This document shows, in pieces, positions 16,041-24,448 of a stretch of 64,000 nucleotides of DNA; position 1 is the stretch's first letter, and each line of letters starts with the position of its first letter. The notes beneath the pieces are model-generated. The model was given only the letters and a program-made list of their open reading frames with translations. It did no database searches and had not been told where the DNA came from. Both the position numbers and the translations under genes were made by a program. Source of the stretch: Peredibacter starrii (GTDB taxonomy: Bacteria; Bdellovibrionota; Bacteriovoracia; Bacteriovoracales; Bacteriovoracaceae); NCBI RefSeq assembly GCF_034259205.1, contig NZ_CP139487.1, positions 1-64,000 of the forward strand, given 5' to 3'.

Positions 16041-16535
16041 ATGAGTATTCTTCGGCCCAAATTTACAAGATTGATTCCCAGTCAGGAAAGCCGCGCTTTT
16101 CATATGGAAAGAAATCGCATCTATACGCCTGATAAGTTTCAATCTTATAACGACTGGTTTTATTTTATTCATGTTGATCCCTTCACGCGCTGGATTCATG
16201 CCATCGGCATGGTGCTAGGATTTATTCTTTATTACTTTTCGGCCTATGAATTATGGCTGACAGGTTTTAGTCTTTCTGTCGTCGTTAAATTCTTAATTGG
16301 TGTTTTCTTTTTCTACTTTCTTCCACTCATTAGCCATTATTTCTATGATGGAGGAAGCGCAAAATCGACTCCTGATAAATTCCATTCCACGCTTATTCCG
16401 GTTATCCACATTAATGTTCTGACCCTAACGGGTCGTTATGATAAATGGCTCAGAAACTTCATGGTGAAATACCCTTTCACCCGCGAGGCCTGGCTTCTGG
16501 AAGAAAAAGAAGGATCTGAACTTGTTCGAAGATAA
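16041..16535 (+). CDS. DUF962/Mpo1-like membrane protein A
   Basis: A 164-residue integral membrane protein. It has the DUF962 pattern: a histidine pair eight residues apart followed by glycine (YFIHVDPFTRWIHAIG), two hydrophobic hairpins, and then LPLISHYFYDGG. In the yeast member Mpo1 these histidines bind iron and the protein oxidises 2-hydroxy fatty acids. Here the substrate is unknown. An internal ATG at 16104 (MERNRIYTPDKF) is an alternative start. The end overlaps the Rieske oxygenase gene by 14 bases, and a second DUF962-like gene follows that one, so the three form an operon. Confidence 0.7.
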   Translation: MSILRPKFTRLIPSQESRAFHMERNRIYTPDKFQSYNDWFYFIHVDPFTRWIHAIGMVLGFILYYFSAYELWLTGFSLSVVVKFLIGVFFFYFLPLISHYFYDGGSAKSTPDKFHSTLIPVIHINVLTLTGRYDKWLRNFMVKYPFTREAWLLEEKEGSELVRR

Positions 16536-17511
16536 TAATCTCGAGACTCAACCAATTAAGGAGATGAACATTTTCAATAACTGGAACTCAGTTGTTGAGG
16601 CCTGGTATTGCGTGGGTGAAGAGTCTGCCTTGAAGAACAATATTCTTTCAACCCAAGTGGGAAAACAAAAGCTCGTCATCTTTAAAACGGAAACCGGAAA
16701 AGTTCATTGTCTGGATGCCTTTTGTTCTCATATGGGTCTGAATCTTAGTTTAGGCAAAGTTGTTAAAGAAGAGATTCGTTGTCACTTTCATCATTGGAGC
16801 TTTAAAGGTGATGGAACCTGCAGTAAGCAGAAAGACCTCAATTCTTATCCAGTTGAAGTTCGCTATGGGCTTATCTGGATTTGGGCGGGTAAAGAAGCGA
16901 AGTACCCTCTTCCTCTGCATCAGGATCTTCTCGAAAATTATACCTATAAGCGTGGTCCTGTTTATACTCGACCATCTCATCCTCATATCAGCTTATTAAA
17001 CGCTCTTGATATTCAACACGTGAATACAGTGCATGCTCTGGATTTGAATGTGTCGGCCAAACATTACGAGGCACCAGACCAGAGTTATATTCACTATGAT
17101 TTTGAAGGAAAGTTTCTTACCAAGGAAAAAATCTTTTTGACCGGTGGAGGCTATAAGTTTTCAGTTCGCTATGCTGGGGCCACAGTGGGTTTTTTAAAGG
17201 CACTGGAAGGCATTAAGATTTTTGGAAAGATCCCGTTCCCAACCATTTATGCAACTTTTGGGTATCGCCAGATCAATCAAAACCAAACAGTAATTCAACC
17301 GATTTTCCTGACTCCGAAACGCACGGGAGTTCTGGGCTGGATCAAGTCTCAACTTCATCTATTCGTAACGGAGATGATTTACAATCGTCTCAAAGGCGAA
17401 GATGGTGAGATTTATGAAAATATTCGCTTCACGCCCAACTTCACGCCGGACGATTCGAATATTGTGAGTTTCATCGCTCACGTTAACCGACTTCCCAAAT
17501 CGAAGTTTTAA
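16522..17511 (+). CDS. Rieske non-heme iron oxygenase A
   Basis: A 329-residue oxygenase. The N-terminal Rieske [2Fe-2S] site is Cys68/His70 (CSHMG) and Cys87/His90 (CHFHHW). The mononuclear iron site is Asp163, His166 and His171 in LDIQHVNTVH. The architecture resembles KshA, cholesterol 7-desaturase and chlorophyllide oxygenase relatives, which act on large hydrophobic substrates. The start is TTG at 16522, with AAGGA seven bases upstream; this places FNNW near residue 18, matching the paralog at 19833-20948. A later ATG at 16564 lacks ribosome-site spacing. No ferredoxin or reductase gene is nearby, so electrons must come from elsewhere. Confidence 0.88.
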   Translation: MFEDNNLETQPIKEMNIFNNWNSVVEAWYCVGEESALKNNILSTQVGKQKLVIFKTETGKVHCLDAFCSHMGLNLSLGKVVKEEIRCHFHHWSFKGDGTCSKQKDLNSYPVEVRYGLIWIWAGKEAKYPLPLHQDLLENYTYKRGPVYTRPSHPHISLLNALDIQHVNTVHALDLNVSAKHYEAPDQSYIHYDFEGKFLTKEKIFLTGGGYKFSVRYAGATVGFLKALEGIKIFGKIPFPTIYATFGYRQINQNQTVIQPIFLTPKRTGVLGWIKSQLHLFVTEMIYNRLKGEDGEIYENIRFTPNFTPDDSNIVSFIAHVNRLPKSKF

Positions 17512-17513
17512 AA

Positions 17514-17921
17514 ATGAAAGTTACCAACACTCGGGGCGAACGAAGTAAAAATATTTTGACTCTGCCACCAGAGAAGTTTGATTCGTATTTTGATTACTAT
17601 GTTTATATCCATCTAAATACTGACGTGGTGATCCTCCATTGCGTAGGCATGCTCCTTGGTTTCTTCTTCCTGGCCTTGGCGATTATCAAGATGAGTTGGG
17701 TCTACCTTCTACTTCATCTTCTGACGTTCAATATCATCCCCTTGGTCTCACATTGGATTTACGATGGCATCATGACTCCAACTGCCAGTGGCGCTCCATT
17801 TATCAGTATCTGGTACGCCATTCGAATTAATATGTGGTATTTAACGGGCAAACAGAAAAAGATTGAACAGAAGTTTATTGAAAAGTACCCATTCACTGAA
17901 GCTTACTTCAGAAAGAAGTAA
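17514..17921 (+). CDS. DUF962/Mpo1-like membrane protein B
   Basis: A 135-residue paralog of the protein encoded at 16041-16535. It repeats the signature: YVYIHLNTDVVILHCVG (two His eight residues apart, then Gly), two hydrophobic segments (about 45-65 and 67-85), and IPLVSHWIYDG. Both paralogs end in a KYPFT-E/R-A motif, and the N-terminal EKFDSYFDYY matches DKFQSYNDWF of the first copy. It lies two bases after the Rieske gene. Its last 14 bases overlap the end of the convergent TauD-like gene. A duplication of the iron-dioxygenase-like unit around one Rieske enzyme is inferred. Confidence 0.68.
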   Translation: MKVTNTRGERSKNILTLPPEKFDSYFDYYVYIHLNTDVVILHCVGMLLGFFFLALAIIKMSWVYLLLHLLTFNIIPLVSHWIYDGIMTPTASGAPFISIWYAIRINMWYLTGKQKKIEQKFIEKYPFTEAYFRKK

Positions 17922-18870
17922 ACTCACCCTCTTCTGCTAAGGACACCAAAATCTTTCTTTTACCTAAGTATGGGTTTCGACCATGAGCGGTCCGTGTATT
18001 GTCGAGAAAGAGTAAATCGCCTTTTTGCCAATCAAACTGCACTTGATTTTTCTCATAGGCATCAACTATCTTGGAAATTTCATCGCTGGAAAGACGCTGC
18101 TTATTTCCGGTTGTGGCACTCATATCAAGTCCCCGAGAAATAAAACGAATAAACTTGAAGACTGGTGTAATCAGGCGGCCCCAGATTCGATGATGGACCT
18201 GAAAGAAATGAAACGAGTTAAACCACACACCTTTTTCATTCAGGGCCGGCAAATGAGTTGTCAGAATGACAGAACCATCTTTAAGCCATTCAGACTGGTA
18301 ATGATTTTGACGGCAGTATTCATTCACGACTTCTGGATCTTGTGTCTTAAACACAAACTGCCAGGTGCCCATTTTAATCATGGGATTAATCAGGCTTAAA
18401 ACTTTACTCGTCGGGGTGTAATTTTTTAAATGGCGGTAATAAATTATGCCCTCATTCAAAAGCTTATTTCGAATAACCTCAGGAACATCTAGATAGACTT
18501 TTTGAATATCTGCAATAGGTGTCTGTCCACCCATTAAAGGTGCGGTCTCGCAATAGAAGAAAATCTTCTTAGGAAATCGCTTTCGGTAGGCCATTTCCGA
18601 ATGCATGGGTATTTTCAGAAAGAATGGCATTTCAGTTGAAGAATAAATGCTGGTGCCCAATTTCTTACGAGGAGAAGTTCCACCGGTGTAATCCAGAAAA
18701 CTTTGTTCCGGCGCTATGGTCTTTACGTATTCTTCCAACAGCTCCCGAGAATGAATGGGAAAGTTTCTAAGAAGAACTGCTGCATGTTCTTTGAAAATAT
18801 GTTCGTTCTCTTTAATCCAACTCTTATGATTTTTAATGGCAGAGCCATCAACAATTAGTGGGAAGGTCAT
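17908..18870 (-). CDS. TauD/TfdA-family Fe(II)/2-oxoglutarate-dependent oxygenase
   Basis: A 320-residue enzyme of the TauD/TfdA superfamily, in the branch that includes SyrP and clavaminate-synthase-like hydroxylases. The iron ligands are His90 and Glu92 (PMHSEMAY) and His296 (TAHGRNPYLGKRK); the nearby Arg is placed to bind 2-oxoglutarate. The N-terminal GAVLLRNF-like strand (AAVLLRNFPI) is also typical. The substrate cannot be read; branch members hydroxylate amino acids or side chains of larger molecules. It is the last gene of the minus-strand operon and overlaps the flippase gene by four bases (ATGA). Confidence 0.82.
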   Translation of the reverse strand: MTFPLIVDGSAIKNHKSWIKENEHIFKEHAAVLLRNFPIHSRELLEEYVKTIAPEQSFLDYTGGTSPRKKLGTSIYSSTEMPFFLKIPMHSEMAYRKRFPKKIFFYCETAPLMGGQTPIADIQKVYLDVPEVIRNKLLNEGIIYYRHLKNYTPTSKVLSLINPMIKMGTWQFVFKTQDPEVVNEYCRQNHYQSEWLKDGSVILTTHLPALNEKGVWFNSFHFFQVHHRIWGRLITPVFKFIRFISRGLDMSATTGNKQRLSSDEISKIVDAYEKNQVQFDWQKGDLLFLDNTRTAHGRNPYLGKRKILVSLAEEGEFTSF

Positions 18871-19832
18871 TTGGACTTCTTCTTAAATTGTTTGATCTCC
18901 TCAATGGTTAGGCTCTGCTTGAAAACAAAAAGCATGAACACTACTCCCAAGGTCACTTGAAGACCAATGGTAGACACTCTCATGGCCGTCACAATCGAGA
19001 TCATGTCATTAAGTGGAATTTCTCCACTAAAAATGAGTGGTGCACCTACTTCGGCGAGCCCCGAAGCTCCTGGAGTAGGCATGAGTAGCATATATGAGAG
19101 GAACAACATCACCTGACCCAACAAAAAATTCGGGACTGAATAATAGCGATAACCTTCATACATAATGAAAGACACTAAAAGAAAATTCATTACTAGCGTA
19201 ATGAGCATAATTGGTAGCATTAAAACTTTGCCATTAGTCAGGAGCGTTCTTATTTGGCCGGTGAGCTTATCCAGGAATTTCACTTCTTTGATAAATTTAA
19301 AAGGGAGGTACGACAGTATAATAAGACCGGCAAAGTAAATCGCGATTCCCGTTAAGACCTGAAAGACCTTTTCCTGCAAAAGAACATTTTGAATTGGCCC
19401 TTGAATATTTAGAGCATAGATTGTGATCGTCGTGATTGCCGAAGTGAGAATGATGGCAAATGATCGTACAAACGAGACCGAAAAAGATTCAACCAGCGGA
19501 TGACCCTTCTTATAGTAATACCAGGCCATGGCGGGCGCTCCAAGGATGGCCATGGGTGAAACCCAACCAAACAAAAGATTAAGGGCAACACCACCGAAGC
19601 ATTCTTCCCAGCTAAAATTCAATTTAAAGATCTTTCCAATGAGCTTCATTCGAAGCATATCAAAGGCGTACAGCAGAAGATTCACGAATAGGATGAAGAG
19701 CACATTATCTTTAATAAGATGGAAACTCTGAGTGTATGAATGTCCCTGATACTGATAGATAGTTCCGCTGATCTTGTCTCCAAGCATGGTCAGAACCAGC
19801 ATCATGAGGATCAGGAAAAAGATCTTTTTCAT
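18867..19832 (-). CDS. UPF0104/LPG-synthase-transmembrane-domain flippase-like protein
   Basis: A 321-residue polytopic membrane protein with about eight hydrophobic segments. It matches the transmembrane part of lysylphosphatidylglycerol synthase (UPF0104, AglD-like): early GGVALNLLFGWVSP-AILG and the signature PTPGASGLAEVGAP near the end. There is no C-terminal synthase domain. Proteins of this type flip or help assemble lipid-linked molecules. It stands directly between Rieske oxygenase B and the TauD-like enzyme with no intergenic gap, so it probably handles the lipid product or substrate of those enzymes, which is an inference. Confidence 0.8.
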   Translation of the reverse strand: MKKIFFLILMMLVLTMLGDKISGTIYQYQGHSYTQSFHLIKDNVLFILFVNLLLYAFDMLRMKLIGKIFKLNFSWEECFGGVALNLLFGWVSPMAILGAPAMAWYYYKKGHPLVESFSVSFVRSFAIILTSAITTITIYALNIQGPIQNVLLQEKVFQVLTGIAIYFAGLIILSYLPFKFIKEVKFLDKLTGQIRTLLTNGKVLMLPIMLITLVMNFLLVSFIMYEGYRYYSVPNFLLGQVMLFLSYMLLMPTPGASGLAEVGAPLIFSGEIPLNDMISIVTAMRVSTIGLQVTLGVVFMLFVFKQSLTIEEIKQFKKKSK

Positions 19833-20948
19833 CTAGGCGTTTACTGCTTCGTCTTCCTGGACCACTTCTTTTTGTTCGCCAATACGGCTACGGGACCAAA
19901 TCGAAGGCTTAATTACGCGATTAACAAATGAGATCCAGCGAGCAGAAGCATTGTCAATTTCAGGTAATAGCCCGCTGTGATTAAAACGAAGATTCTTATA
20001 AATCACTCGCCCATCCTGGAAGGCCAGGAACCACATGAGTACTTTATGGACACGAATGAGTGCCCAGGAAAACAAGAATCCATGAAGTCCCTTTCGCTTC
20101 TCTGTCACCATGATCGGCCAAACCACAGTTTCGCCTTTCTGAGAGAAGGTCTGTGAAAAAATGAAATAACCGCAAGGAAGCGGAAACTTTTTGAATAATT
20201 TTAAATCAATCATGATGGTCAATAAACCAAGGCAACCATCTACAAAAAGAACAGAACTTTTCCATTTATCTCCAAGGAAAAACTTCTGGATTTTTCCGGA
20301 AAGTGACTGATCTAACACCTTACCTGTGAACGTCACCTTGAAGCGAGTTCCCTCTTCCTGAATCGCAACATCCAGATCAAGAGGCAGTTTATGGACTGAG
20401 CGCATGTGCTGCTCATCAATTGAATTCATCATCGTAATGTGAGGGTGAGCAATTCGACGAAAAGGTTTCAAATCAGTGAAAAGGATTTCCTTCCCTTTCA
20501 ATTCATCTATCTCAAAGACCTGACCAGAAGCTTCTTTATCTGAATATACCCAGATAAAGCCATACTTCTCTTCCACTGGATACGAGTTAACAGACTTCCC
20601 ATTTTCCACTTTCTTTTTAAGACACGGAATATCAACGCACTTACCTTCTGAATTGAACTGCCACTCGTGGAAGATACAAGTGAGGTTTTCACCTTGAACT
20701 TTTCCTTCCGCAAGACTCATTCCCATATGAGGACAAAACTTGTCCAGCGCGTGTGCCTTTCCACTTTCAGTTCGGTAAAGAGCAAGCTCATGACCACAAA
20801 TTTTGATCGGCAGGGCCTTTCCCTTTTTCAGGTCCTTACTTTTACAAACGACATACCATCCTTTCGCAACAACATCCCAGTTGTTGAACACCTTATGTGG
20901 ACGGATTGGTTGGGTCGTTTGATTGATTTCAAAAAGCATTTCTTTCAT
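19833..20948 (-). CDS. Rieske non-heme iron oxygenase B
   Basis: A 371-residue paralog of Rieske oxygenase A. The Rieske site is Cys72/His74 (CPHMGM) and Cys91/His94 (CIFHEW), and the catalytic iron site is Asp178, His181 and His186 (DEQHMRSVH). It is longer than A at the C-terminus by a charged tail after KPSIWSR. It shares FNNW, AHPHITMMN and the late VTEKRKGLHGF block with A, so the two come from one ancestor and probably act on related substrates. The start codon at 20948 lies in a palindrome (20945-20968); a second ATG at 20939 is possible. It is the middle gene of the five-gene minus operon. Confidence 0.88.
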   Translation of the reverse strand: MKEMLFEINQTTQPIRPHKVFNNWDVVAKGWYVVCKSKDLKKGKALPIKICGHELALYRTESGKAHALDKFCPHMGMSLAEGKVQGENLTCIFHEWQFNSEGKCVDIPCLKKKVENGKSVNSYPVEEKYGFIWVYSDKEASGQVFEIDELKGKEILFTDLKPFRRIAHPHITMMNSIDEQHMRSVHKLPLDLDVAIQEEGTRFKVTFTGKVLDQSLSGKIQKFFLGDKWKSSVLFVDGCLGLLTIMIDLKLFKKFPLPCGYFIFSQTFSQKGETVVWPIMVTEKRKGLHGFLFSWALIRVHKVLMWFLAFQDGRVIYKNLRFNHSGLLPEIDNASARWISFVNRVIKPSIWSRSRIGEQKEVVQEDEAVNA

Positions 20949-20968
20949 GTGATAAGTCTATCACGTGA
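20945..20968 (-). promoter_or_regulatory. Palindrome over the Rieske B start codon
   Basis: Arms TCATGTGATA and TATCACGTGA flank AGTC and are complementary except at one position, where G-U pairing in RNA or a single DNA mismatch occurs. The arm includes the start codon at 20948-20946. It could be an operator for a dimeric regulator or an RNA hairpin that hides the start. It lies in the 56-base gap between the transporter and Rieske B genes, so it may set the relative expression of the two halves of the operon. Confidence 0.45.
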
Positions 20969-21004
20969 CTAAATTCGCAAGGAGGCGGAAGGAAATACCT
21001 ATGT

Positions 21005-23152
21005 CTATTGATCGGCTTTTCTAGTCAGCAGTCCCTTTAAACCAAAAAGGTCACCGACTAAGTTAATAAAAAAGCCCAGAACAAAGAGGGTCCCCAAAAT
21101 TTTCATCGGCTTAAGTGTCTGAAGCAGGAACATGGAACTCGCGAGGATCATTACAATAGTCACCATGATACTAGCACGGGCGCGGCCTTCGATTCCTCTC
21201 GCTAGATTTTCATCATCCGTCAGCATGTACTGAATGGCATTGTCACCGGCGAGTCCCACCATGACCGCCAGGAAGATTGAGGTAATGAGAGTCACAGGAA
21301 TTTGAAAAATACTTATGATGGTAAGAATCACTAATGGTCCCATAAGGGAAGATAGGACGACTGCCCAGAAATGCTGAAGCTTGTTCACAGTCCAGAGAAG
21401 ATACACAAGTATTCCAACCACCAGTAAAATACTTACGGCAAAGCTTTCAATCATAGTACGAGAGATTTTTTCCCCATACTCCAGATACACTACTCGCTGA
21501 CCTGCCAGACGACATTGGTCCTGACAAATCGGTAAAATCTCATCACGAAATTTTCTGAGTGAATGAAGATCCTGCTCTTTTAAGTAGAGAGGAATTCTCA
21601 GAGTGTCTTCACTTGAGTAGTACTTTTCCCATAATGGCGTCATACTCAGTTCCCGACGAATAAGTTCCTGCTTTAAAGGTGGGAAATCCTTGGTCCACTC
21701 TTGTGCCATTTCCTCTGGATCTTCTACGCGAGTCACCATCTCAGAAGCTTTGATCTTGCTCAGAATAGACTCTTGTTCAGCAATCGAAGGCTTAGTTGGA
21801 AAATAAAGATAGACCTGACCCTGCCAACCAAATTTCTTCTGAAAATCCTCGTATCCCACACGCATAACATGATCTTTCGGAAGATTCAGCACCGGTGAAT
21901 CCTGATCATTCAAGAAAAAGAAAGCGGGCACTGAAAGCACCATCAGAACCATCAAGAGCTTTAAACACCAATCTGGCAGGCTAAATTCTTCAATCTTTTG
22001 GGCCCATTTCCCACTAATGCCCTTCTGAGAATTGACCCATACTTTCTCTTTGTTGATCACTTTTAGAACCGCAGGCAACAAAAGAAACAACATCAGCCAT
22101 TCCGCTGCTGCACCAATAGCGGCCCCATTTCCAAAGCGCTGAATAAGAGAAAGGTCTGAGGTATTTAAAGAAAGAAAACCAACAATGGTTGTAAGCGAAG
22201 TGAAAAAACTAGGTCTGATTAATTTCTTAAAACTGTCGTGATAGTTACCAGTCATCTGGTGCTGAGTTACAAATATAAAGTCTGCAGTTCCCGAAACTGC
22301 CGTCATCAAAAAGAGATTATTTGTGAGAATATCAATCGGCATTCCGAGCAAGGCCATTAATCCATAAAGGATTATGCCTGAGCCCATCAAAGTCAGAATG
22401 AGGTATCCCCCACTCTTCCATGTTCCGTACACTGCGCGCATAAAAATTAAAATCACGAGCAGAACCAGCATGCTGTAAATGCTATCTCTCTGCATGATTT
22501 TTCTAAAATAGTATCGAGAAGTCGCAAGTCCTAGATATCGAACCTTGGCACTTTTGAATTCTTTTTTAGTGAATGAATCCGTGTGATCCATTAAAGATTG
22601 AATCTCTTTGAGATTGGCCCCGGTCTTTGTAAAAGACACATCAAAGACCAGATCCTTACTCCCACTTCGGGAAACGAGGTGACGAAAGAAGGAGGCCTTA
22701 AAAACTTCTGAAAGTTGAAATTCAGAATGAGGATCAAGCACACAAGGATCATTTAGGGTTTTTGGATACCAAAGCTTCCCATCCTGCATTTTCGGCGCAC
22801 GGAGGGACCAAAGAGAAGTAACGTTTTTGATATCTTCCAGACGATTTAAATCTCGGCTCCAATTCAGGAGCTTACAAACATCTCCCGCCTTCGGAATACT
22901 CTCGAAGCTAAAGGCCACCAGAACCTGGGCCTGATCTCCGTAATATTCCTTCATCTCGAAAAGATCTGAACTACTTTGAAAATGCGAATCATAGACGTCA
23001 TAGATATCAAGTTCGAGCTTTGTGAACTTAAGTCCCCAGGCGCAAATAGCGATCAGAACTGCAAAGAAGGTAACAGTTAGGCCCGCTCTTTTTTGCACAA
23101 AGAGGAGGACACTTTGGAAAAGCGATGAGCTATCAGGGAATGATTTTTTCAC
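21005..23152 (-). CDS. RND/MMPL-superfamily membrane transporter
   Basis: A 715-residue protein with the RND layout: one N-terminal membrane helix (about 24-42), a large periplasmic loop, five or six helices (about 218-360), a second single helix (near 395), a second periplasmic loop, and a final helix bundle (about 570-700). Segments such as SGTADFIFVTQHQM and GLAGDNAIQYMLTDDEN correspond to the helix-4/helix-10 regions that carry proton-relay residues. Size and shape fit the MMPL and hopanoid-transporter HpnN group, which move lipids to the outer membrane. The start is GTG at 23152 with GGGAG upstream. It presumably exports the product of the oxygenases around it. Confidence 0.85.
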   Translation of the reverse strand: MKKSFPDSSSLFQSVLLFVQKRAGLTVTFFAVLIAICAWGLKFTKLELDIYDVYDSHFQSSSDLFEMKEYYGDQAQVLVAFSFESIPKAGDVCKLLNWSRDLNRLEDIKNVTSLWSLRAPKMQDGKLWYPKTLNDPCVLDPHSEFQLSEVFKASFFRHLVSRSGSKDLVFDVSFTKTGANLKEIQSLMDHTDSFTKKEFKSAKVRYLGLATSRYYFRKIMQRDSIYSMLVLLVILIFMRAVYGTWKSGGYLILTLMGSGIILYGLMALLGMPIDILTNNLFLMTAVSGTADFIFVTQHQMTGNYHDSFKKLIRPSFFTSLTTIVGFLSLNTSDLSLIQRFGNGAAIGAAAEWLMLFLLLPAVLKVINKEKVWVNSQKGISGKWAQKIEEFSLPDWCLKLLMVLMVLSVPAFFFLNDQDSPVLNLPKDHVMRVGYEDFQKKFGWQGQVYLYFPTKPSIAEQESILSKIKASEMVTRVEDPEEMAQEWTKDFPPLKQELIRRELSMTPLWEKYYSSEDTLRIPLYLKEQDLHSLRKFRDEILPICQDQCRLAGQRVVYLEYGEKISRTMIESFAVSILLVVGILVYLLWTVNKLQHFWAVVLSSLMGPLVILTIISIFQIPVTLITSIFLAVMVGLAGDNAIQYMLTDDENLARGIEGRARASIMVTIVMILASSMFLLQTLKPMKILGTLFVLGFFINLVGDLFGLKGLLTRKADQ

Positions 23153-23173
23153 TCCCTAAATTATCAACTGGAT

Positions 23174-24448
23174 TCAGTGCCAATGCCAGTTCTTTTGATG
23201 GTCCTCATGGGTATGAAGATATGAACCAGGTTTGTAGTACTTGTCGTAAAAATCAAGATCCAGGTGATGCGCCTGAAGATAGGTAAGGCAGTAAGTTGAA
23301 GGCAAGGTCGCCGGAAACTTTCCAAACTTTTGGTGAATGTATTGTGCTTGGAGGGCCACACATTCAATGAATTCCTCTGAATGAATTTTGGCACTTTTTC
23401 TCACTAGTGGTGATTCCTTCCAGGGACCAGGAGTCTCTTCATTAAAAGGTCCATTCGGACCAAACTTTCTTTCAACCACCGCTCTCACTGCCGCTTTCAT
23501 ATCGGGAAAATACGGAGGACAAAAAGCTTCAAATACTCCGGGAATGCCGACCGGGTTTGGAAACACCCAATCATTTCTAGTGACTGAACTAAAACCTAGC
23601 CCTTTATTACGTGGATCACCACTAACTCCAAAAACTGAATGGCGATCGATCCCGTCATACATCCATCCTCCGAGCCCCATTGCCTGAAGAATGAGTGATC
23701 CGGCGTAGCAAGAAGTCGATACTTCCACGGTTCCTTCACCTAAAACAATCTGCTCAACGTATGAGAGAGGAAAAGGATTTTGTAAATCAACAATATGTTT
23801 AAACTTATCCAGACCTGGAATCTGTTCATGATGAAAATCGTTGTAGATCCCATAACCATTCTGAGCGAGATAACAAAGCATTAAGACCATATGCTGGGCC
23901 AAATCAACCACCGGCACAGCAAACAAACTTCCCGGACAATTAGCGATCCAAAGATTGTGACTTTCAATGTGAGGTTCCTCGACCGGTATTTGAATTCGTT
24001 TATCAGATAGCTGTTTAATTTGACTCCGATTATGGTCGAGCCAATCATCAACATTCAATTCATTCGCCATCGCTTTAGTTTTGGCCGCCGGGGCATTCCG
24101 ATTACTCAAGAAGAAGACTCCTGAATCATCTGAGAAGAACAACGAGCTCGTATGAAAACCAGCTGATGAAGGAAAAGTTCTGCCCCCTGCACTCCCAGCG
24201 TAATTAGGAAACTCTGGGGCGTACTTCTGATTAAAGGGAATAAGATGACTCCAACCAGTATTACCGGCCATCGCAGAAATAATCAGTGTTCGTTCAATTT
24301 CATTTAATGGTTGTGGAGGTTTTTGAGATTGAAAGGCCAATGGTCCTGACTCGATTGAAGATCCAACCGCAAATCTTCGAGATCTTCTTCCCATAATTGC
24401 ATGCATGAGGGGAAAACTTGCAATTTGCTCCATCGCCTTCTTAGACAT
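23174..24448 (-). CDS. Nitroreductase-like protein of unknown function
   Basis: A 424-residue protein, first gene of the minus operon. Residues 10-25 (FPLMHAIMGRRSRRFAVG) resemble the FMN-phosphate-binding R-R-S-x-R motif at the start of nitroreductases. The later VSTSCYAGSLILQAMGLGGWMYDG resembles the second flavin region, where nitroreductases have an alanine-rich helix ending in a G-L-G turn. The family is longer than standard nitroreductases (about 200 residues) and ends in a His-rich tail (HTHEDHQKNWHWH). I infer a flavin-dependent oxidoreductase, which might feed or follow the oxygenases. This is a weak assignment from local motifs only. Confidence 0.5.
   Translation of the reverse strand: MSKKAMEQIASFPLMHAIMGRRSRRFAVGSSIESGPLAFQSQKPPQPLNEIERTLIISAMAGNTGWSHLIPFNQKYAPEFPNYAGSAGGRTFPSSAGFHTSSLFFSDDSGVFFLSNRNAPAAKTKAMANELNVDDWLDHNRSQIKQLSDKRIQIPVEEPHIESHNLWIANCPGSLFAVPVVDLAQHMVLMLCYLAQNGYGIYNDFHHEQIPGLDKFKHIVDLQNPFPLSYVEQIVLGEGTVEVSTSCYAGSLILQAMGLGGWMYDGIDRHSVFGVSGDPRNKGLGFSSVTRNDWVFPNPVGIPGVFEAFCPPYFPDMKAAVRAVVERKFGPNGPFNEETPGPWKESPLVRKSAKIHSEEFIECVALQAQYIHQKFGKFPATLPSTYCLTYLQAHHLDLDFYDKYYKPGSYLHTHEDHQKNWHWH

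Follow-up and report, generated by a model that had tools for sequence, protein, structure and literature searches.

The oxygenase genes found in two facing operons at positions 16041-24448 of the window (the whole 64,000-nucleotide stretch that was analysed) probably form a satellite, supplying tailoring and export functions, of a larger gene cluster located elsewhere in the same genome (C1:4116473-4127951). Judging from the sequences, the two together would constitute a pathway that makes and exports an oxidised acyl product. An earlier note on this DNA had proposed an undescribed pathway of lipid oxidation and export encoded by the eight genes of the two operons. The direction of that proposal holds; the eight-gene unit does not, since its components belong to the larger cluster.

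Genes and enzyme families of the window

All eight reported ORFs were confirmed with their strands and positions, as was the 14-base overlap (17908-17921) of the convergent operon ends, and gene families were assigned using Pfam and NCBIfam. The plus-strand operon encodes, in reading order, an Mpo1/DUF962-like membrane dioxygenase, copy a (Mpo1a, 16041-16535; its own Pfam score is weak, 0.35), a Rieske oxygenase of a divergent subfamily (Rieske A, 16522-17511, with a TTG start and overlapping Mpo1a; Pfam Rieske 2.7e-20) and an Mpo1/DUF962-like copy b of another subtype (Mpo1b, 17514-17921; Pfam 9e-8). The minus-strand operon starts with the gene of a 424-aa protein resembling nitroreductases in fold (23174-24448), followed by an HpnN-like RND/MMPL transporter (21005-23152; NCBIfam HpnN 6.3e-10; Pfam MMPL 0.0052, which falls short of the cut-off), a second Rieske oxygenase (Rieske B, 19833-20948; Pfam Rieske 1.1e-27), a flippase-like membrane protein of the LPG_synthase_TM/UPF0104 type (18867-19832; Pfam 7.1e-11) and a TauD/TfdA-type Fe(II)/2-oxoglutarate oxygenase (17908-18870; Pfam TauD 5.6e-27). 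The G+C content of these genes (0.40-0.44) is in line with that of the window (0.425). Promoter and terminator scans of the operons gave matches no more numerous than in shuffled sequences, so that operon boundaries are set here by spacing only.

The iron ligands of the Rieske and TauD enzymes and the histidines of the Mpo1 proteins, previously read from the sequence, were confirmed. Both window Rieskes possess the CxH...CxxH cluster site and the 2-His-1-Asp iron site that define Rieske non-haem iron oxygenases, and the residues concerned (CxH/CxxH, DxxH-x4-H and the C-terminal Asp) show no variation among A, B and seven relatives. The HxE...HGR signature of the TauD enzyme, whose closest solved relative is At3g21360 (4.8e-29), is kept across family members, and so are the Mpo1 histidines. 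The window Mpo1 proteins share this histidine pattern with the yeast 2-hydroxy fatty acid dioxygenase Mpo1 (PF06127, curated cut-off of 24 bits), and Mpo1b passes the cut-off with 32.6 bits, whereas Mpo1a stays below it (11.5 bits); the dioxygenase activity of both window proteins is a prediction.

The two Rieske enzymes and the two DUF962 proteins had been regarded as duplicated pairs. Local duplication was ruled out in both cases: Rieskes A and B belong to different, old subfamilies in the tree, where Rieske A forms a long branch among the cluster Rieskes, and Mpo1a and Mpo1b match different subtypes in relatives. Both Mpo1 proteins also match the same Mpo1 copies in the clusters of relatives.

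Sterols, hopanoids or other polycyclic isoprenoids were considered as substrates to be oxidised and exported, as in 4-methylsterol demethylation by the SdmA Rieske and in HpnN-type transport. SdmA is indeed the best NCBIfam match of the window Rieskes (2.6e-26 and 8.6e-16, far below the 600-bit cut-off), and the RND transporter has a match to HpnN and a weak one to the sterol-sensing domain. The window RND nevertheless lacks both marks of an HpnN hopanoid transporter: it scores 37.7 bits for a cut-off of 751.85, and it lies in a genome in which a search for squalene/hopene cyclase domains was negative (the control search being positive in Bacillus subtilis). It shares with the HpnN/HAE3 transporters the RND family and a proposed role in lipid export, and HpnN is its best NCBIfam match. 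The absence of a squalene cyclase rules against such a pathway and disfavours the isoprenoid or sterol substrate suggested earlier, and the enzymes of the larger cluster are of acyl type, with fatty-acid desaturases in related clusters (see below); this explanation is considered highly improbable. Among solved structures, Rieske B comes closest to the SxtT/SxtDIOX Rieskes (5.9e-20); this match reflects the Rieske superfamily, and on that ground saxitoxin-type enzymes were rejected as candidates.

The larger cluster and its links to the window

The larger cluster comprises 12 genes; on a circular contig, its distance from the window genes would be about 41 kb. By Pfam, these genes encode three Rieske oxygenases (one of VanA type), an AurF-like diiron protein (F1), a fatty-acid hydroxylase, a 2Fe-2S ferredoxin, a ferritin-like protein, a GH3 amide synthetase (profile match 8.6e-18), a hexapeptide acyltransferase, a weakly GNAT-like protein (F6), a short-chain dehydrogenase and a secreted-looking protein of no known family (F10). 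The ferredoxin partly answers the lack of an electron donor that had been remarked on for the window operons. When the sequenced plasmids were searched with the ferritin-like protein, one weak match was obtained.

A third place in the same genome (G000:C1:300567-302388, L050:7568-9389) carries a Rieske gene paired with a CAT-like acyltransferase gene (F13). When the single 4.15-Mb contig of this genome and 94 relatives were searched with Rieske B, the genome proved to contain six related Rieske genes, distributed over three places: two are in the window, C1:300624-301631 holds one, and the remaining three lie in the larger cluster at C1:4118166-4127939. In G027 (L117) the Rieske-F13 pair stands beside TauD and Mpo1 genes, and clusters elsewhere contain it as well.

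The same core was found in 14 clusters of the family, and F1 in 30 of the 369 genomes of the phylum; full clusters that include RND, F10 and F13 genes occur in other families of the phylum (L123, L124, L128). No published description of the cluster in this lineage was found in the literature. An APH-type kinase gene, possibly a further tailoring or resistance gene, stands beside the cluster in G053, and the same gene family is present in G007 (L055:3449-4477 and L051:7144-8184).

The neighbourhood of eight genes is conserved in no relative examined, and it is the individual components that connect the window to the core: clusters of relatives contain orthologues or family members of the window RND, Rieske B and Mpo1, and in one case a TauD gene as neighbour. 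G007 and G036 have orthologues of Rieske B (58-63% identity) that adjoin the RND and F10 genes within the cluster, and with these two Rieske B forms a clade of three rows supported at 100/100; G020 has a third orthologue, likewise within this range of identity. Strong relatives of Rieske B (E < 1e-40) were detected in 17 of the 95 family genomes. F1 is present in 16 of these 17, and none of the F1-bearing genomes among the 95 is devoid of such a relative (Fisher p 3e-17, a value inflated by shared ancestry). The window RND belongs to a supported clade (96/93) with seven members, each from an F1-bearing genome and four of them located inside the cluster; at the equivalent position, G007 and G036 have RNDs of another, divergent type. 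In many genomes Mpo1 relatives are found in the cluster or next to it, Mpo1a being 40-47% identical to copies inside the cluster in G007, G036, G053 and G069, and Mpo1b 38-40% identical to those in G044, G056 and G076. The TauD enzyme has relatives next to the cluster in G053 and, in G027, next to Mpo1, Rieske and F13 genes.

In two genomes of the same genus, an Mpo1 gene (60-62% identity to Mpo1a) and the RND gene are direct neighbours at the same locus, where the flanking genes are shared as well; the core clusters of these two genomes lie about 19 and 54 kb away. The five genes that separate Mpo1a from the RND gene in the window stand between the two only in its own genome among the relatives examined, which indicates that the intervening genes are either a lineage-specific insertion or were lost in relatives.

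These five genes, the distance of about 41 kb and the presence of a flippase and a 424-aa protein with no link to the core could also be expected from an independent pathway that shares enzyme families with the core, for example one that remodels the membrane lipids of the cell itself (2-hydroxy fatty acids via Mpo1, a flippase and an HpnN-like pump). This explanation is rather unlikely: the window RND and Rieske B are orthologous to genes inside the core cluster in other genomes, Mpo1 is found inside that cluster in several genomes, and the close Rieske relatives track the presence of the halogenase homologue F1.

Two window genes are probably not core components. The label of nitroreductase given earlier to the 424-aa protein has no sequence support, since no nitroreductase match was obtained by sequence in Pfam, NCBIfam or PDB; the resemblance is one of fold only, the top fold matches of a low-confidence AlphaFold model (pLDDT 64.5) being nitroreductases with E values of 0.02-0.07 (best 0.024). 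Its gene is present in 1 of the 95 family genomes, while its relatives (mostly 38-57% identity) come from Pontibacter, Myxococcus and assorted MAGs, and searches for F1 in the genomes of these relatives (Pontibacter, Myxococcus and others) found none. On this distribution it was rejected as a pathway member, and it is probably a passenger. Its very patchy occurrence (Pontibacter, Myxococcus, an Actinomycetota MAG and an archaeal-labelled MAG) suggests horizontal transfer; its C-terminal HHLD...YDK and HxxHxxxWH motifs are conserved. The flippase gene is present in 3 of 59 family genomes, its own among them, and lies away from the cluster in the other two, as the 424-aa gene does in relatives; being rare and unlinked to the cluster, the flippase was rejected as a core part and is probably accessory.

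The halogenase homologue and known Rieske-containing clusters

The F1 protein carries two motifs, ExxQExxH (E146-H153 in the protein of this genome) and HxxDExxH (residues H261, D264, E265 and H268), both invariant in 13/13 sequences; the two patterns were found in 8/8 sequences checked, four of them cyanobacterial. These motifs are the marks of dimetal-carboxylate halogenases, which are set apart from AurF by the Gln of ExxQExxH, AurF having Asp (PMC12101540, PMC12871659). All 13 members of the F1 family match AurF (best 2.4e-5), and the F1 profile had no match in PDB. Among sequenced plasmids, the only tblastn matches of F1 were four cyanobacterial genes, three of them with annotated surroundings: fatty acyl-AMP ligase, ACP and PKS genes adjoin two of these, and sulfotransferase and P450 genes the third, both being contexts listed for CylC homologues (PMC8406957).

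F1 thus resembles the CylC/NocO halogenases (PMC12101540) in both motifs and in an invariant Glu of the first helix, and can be aligned with the cyanobacterial FAAL/PKS-associated members. It differs from them in having neither an ACP nor a fatty acyl-AMP ligase nearby, and in the residue aligned with the likely position of NocO E252, which is Gln in F1 and Glu in the four cyanobacterial relatives; this Glu, which most characterised enzymes have, is needed for activity in NocO, and Gln occurs in a small subset of homologues (PMC12101540). Taking both the likeness and the differences, halogenation by F1 is plausible. To our knowledge, none of the halogenase homologues of Rieske clusters has been assayed.

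Cyanobacterial «Rieske-containing» clusters are orphan clusters in which a single CylC homologue is accompanied by 2-4 Rieskes, a sterol-desaturase protein and acyltransferases, with no carrier protein and no known product, and a few deltaproteobacterial members are part of the same network cluster (PMC8406957). The core has the content that defines them, namely a CylC homologue, 2-4 Rieskes and a protein of the sterol-desaturase/fatty-acid-hydroxylase type without carrier proteins, and is therefore like them by published description (PMC8406957). The earlier view of the pathway as undescribed has to be amended for the existence of these orphan clusters. A ferritin-like protein, as in the core, is found in the related PriA type (PMC8406957). 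Compared with the Rieske-containing CylC clusters, a GH3 synthetase, an RND and F10 export pair, Mpo1, TauD and up to six Rieskes are present here, and the genes are split over three chromosomal places. Plasmid p2 of Planktothrix agardhii (NZ_LR882940.1, L107) carries genes for a squalene-oxidase-repeat protein, a squalene synthase, four P450, three Rieskes and an emopamil-binding protein. It was rejected as a Rieske/CylC relative, being a triterpene/P450-type locus in which no halogenase homologue was found.

Proposed pathway and its distribution in the phylum

In the proposed pathway, an acyl group would be activated and joined to an amine without carrier proteins by the GH3-type synthetase and the GNAT-like and hexapeptide acyltransferases, a step in which the CAT-like acyltransferase of the third place may also take part. 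The acyl chain would then be oxidised repeatedly by the fatty-acid hydroxylase, the ferritin-like protein, the Rieskes (with the 2Fe-2S ferredoxin of the cluster as electron donor) and the CylC-type diiron enzyme, the last of which may chlorinate it. The window Rieskes and the TauD enzyme would carry out later oxidations, and Mpo1 a chain shortening or oxidation, before the RND pump exports the product across the inner membrane with the presumed help of the secreted protein F10. Any carbon skeleton is a guess, the cluster having no obvious scaffold enzyme; the product would be a heavily oxidised, possibly chlorinated, lipid-like or acyl molecule.

A sister type of cluster without the CylC-type enzyme was observed at L131-L138 (G017, G080, G087, G045, G034, G016, G086 and G043). 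These clusters hold varying combinations of genes for GNAT-like F6, GH3, Rieske, F10, RND, fatty-acid desaturases, a 370-400-aa protein of no known family and a 930-aa FG-GAP/UnbV protein that includes an NQR2/RnfD-like stretch, some also with B12-radical SAM proteins. Sister clusters of the family carry PAP2 and another AurF-like protein as well. Fatty-acid desaturases and PAP2 in sister clusters point to acyl lipids and, together with the fatty-acid hydroxylase, GH3 and acyltransferases of the core, support acyl chemistry.

Catabolism often involves oxygenases of the Rieske and TauD families, and an SBF (bile-acid symporter-like) gene is present in the clusters of some relatives, as could be the case if the enzymes degraded lipids or xenobiotics from prey or from the environment. 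The GH3 synthetase, the several acyltransferases, the halogenase-type enzyme and the exporter-type RND point to synthesis instead, and ring-cleavage or beta-oxidation genes are absent among the recurrent cluster families, which makes such a degradative role quite improbable.

Tentatively, the synthetic pathway proposed here may represent an undescribed class that is widespread in the phylum, namely acyl amides or esters made by GH3 synthetases and acyltransferases without carrier proteins, with up to a dozen iron sites for their oxidation and chlorination in some cases, exported by a dedicated pair of RND and F10, and encoded by no fewer than two sister types of cluster, which differ in the presence of the CylC-type enzyme. 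CylC-type clusters are rare outside cyanobacteria, and no product is known for their Rieske type. The clusters described here are complete and conserved, an exporter matches them, and relatives show a natural series of gains and losses, which makes for a tractable set in product discovery. If F1 does chlorinate, it would be a diiron halogenase that works independently of a carrier protein, of interest for biocatalysis.
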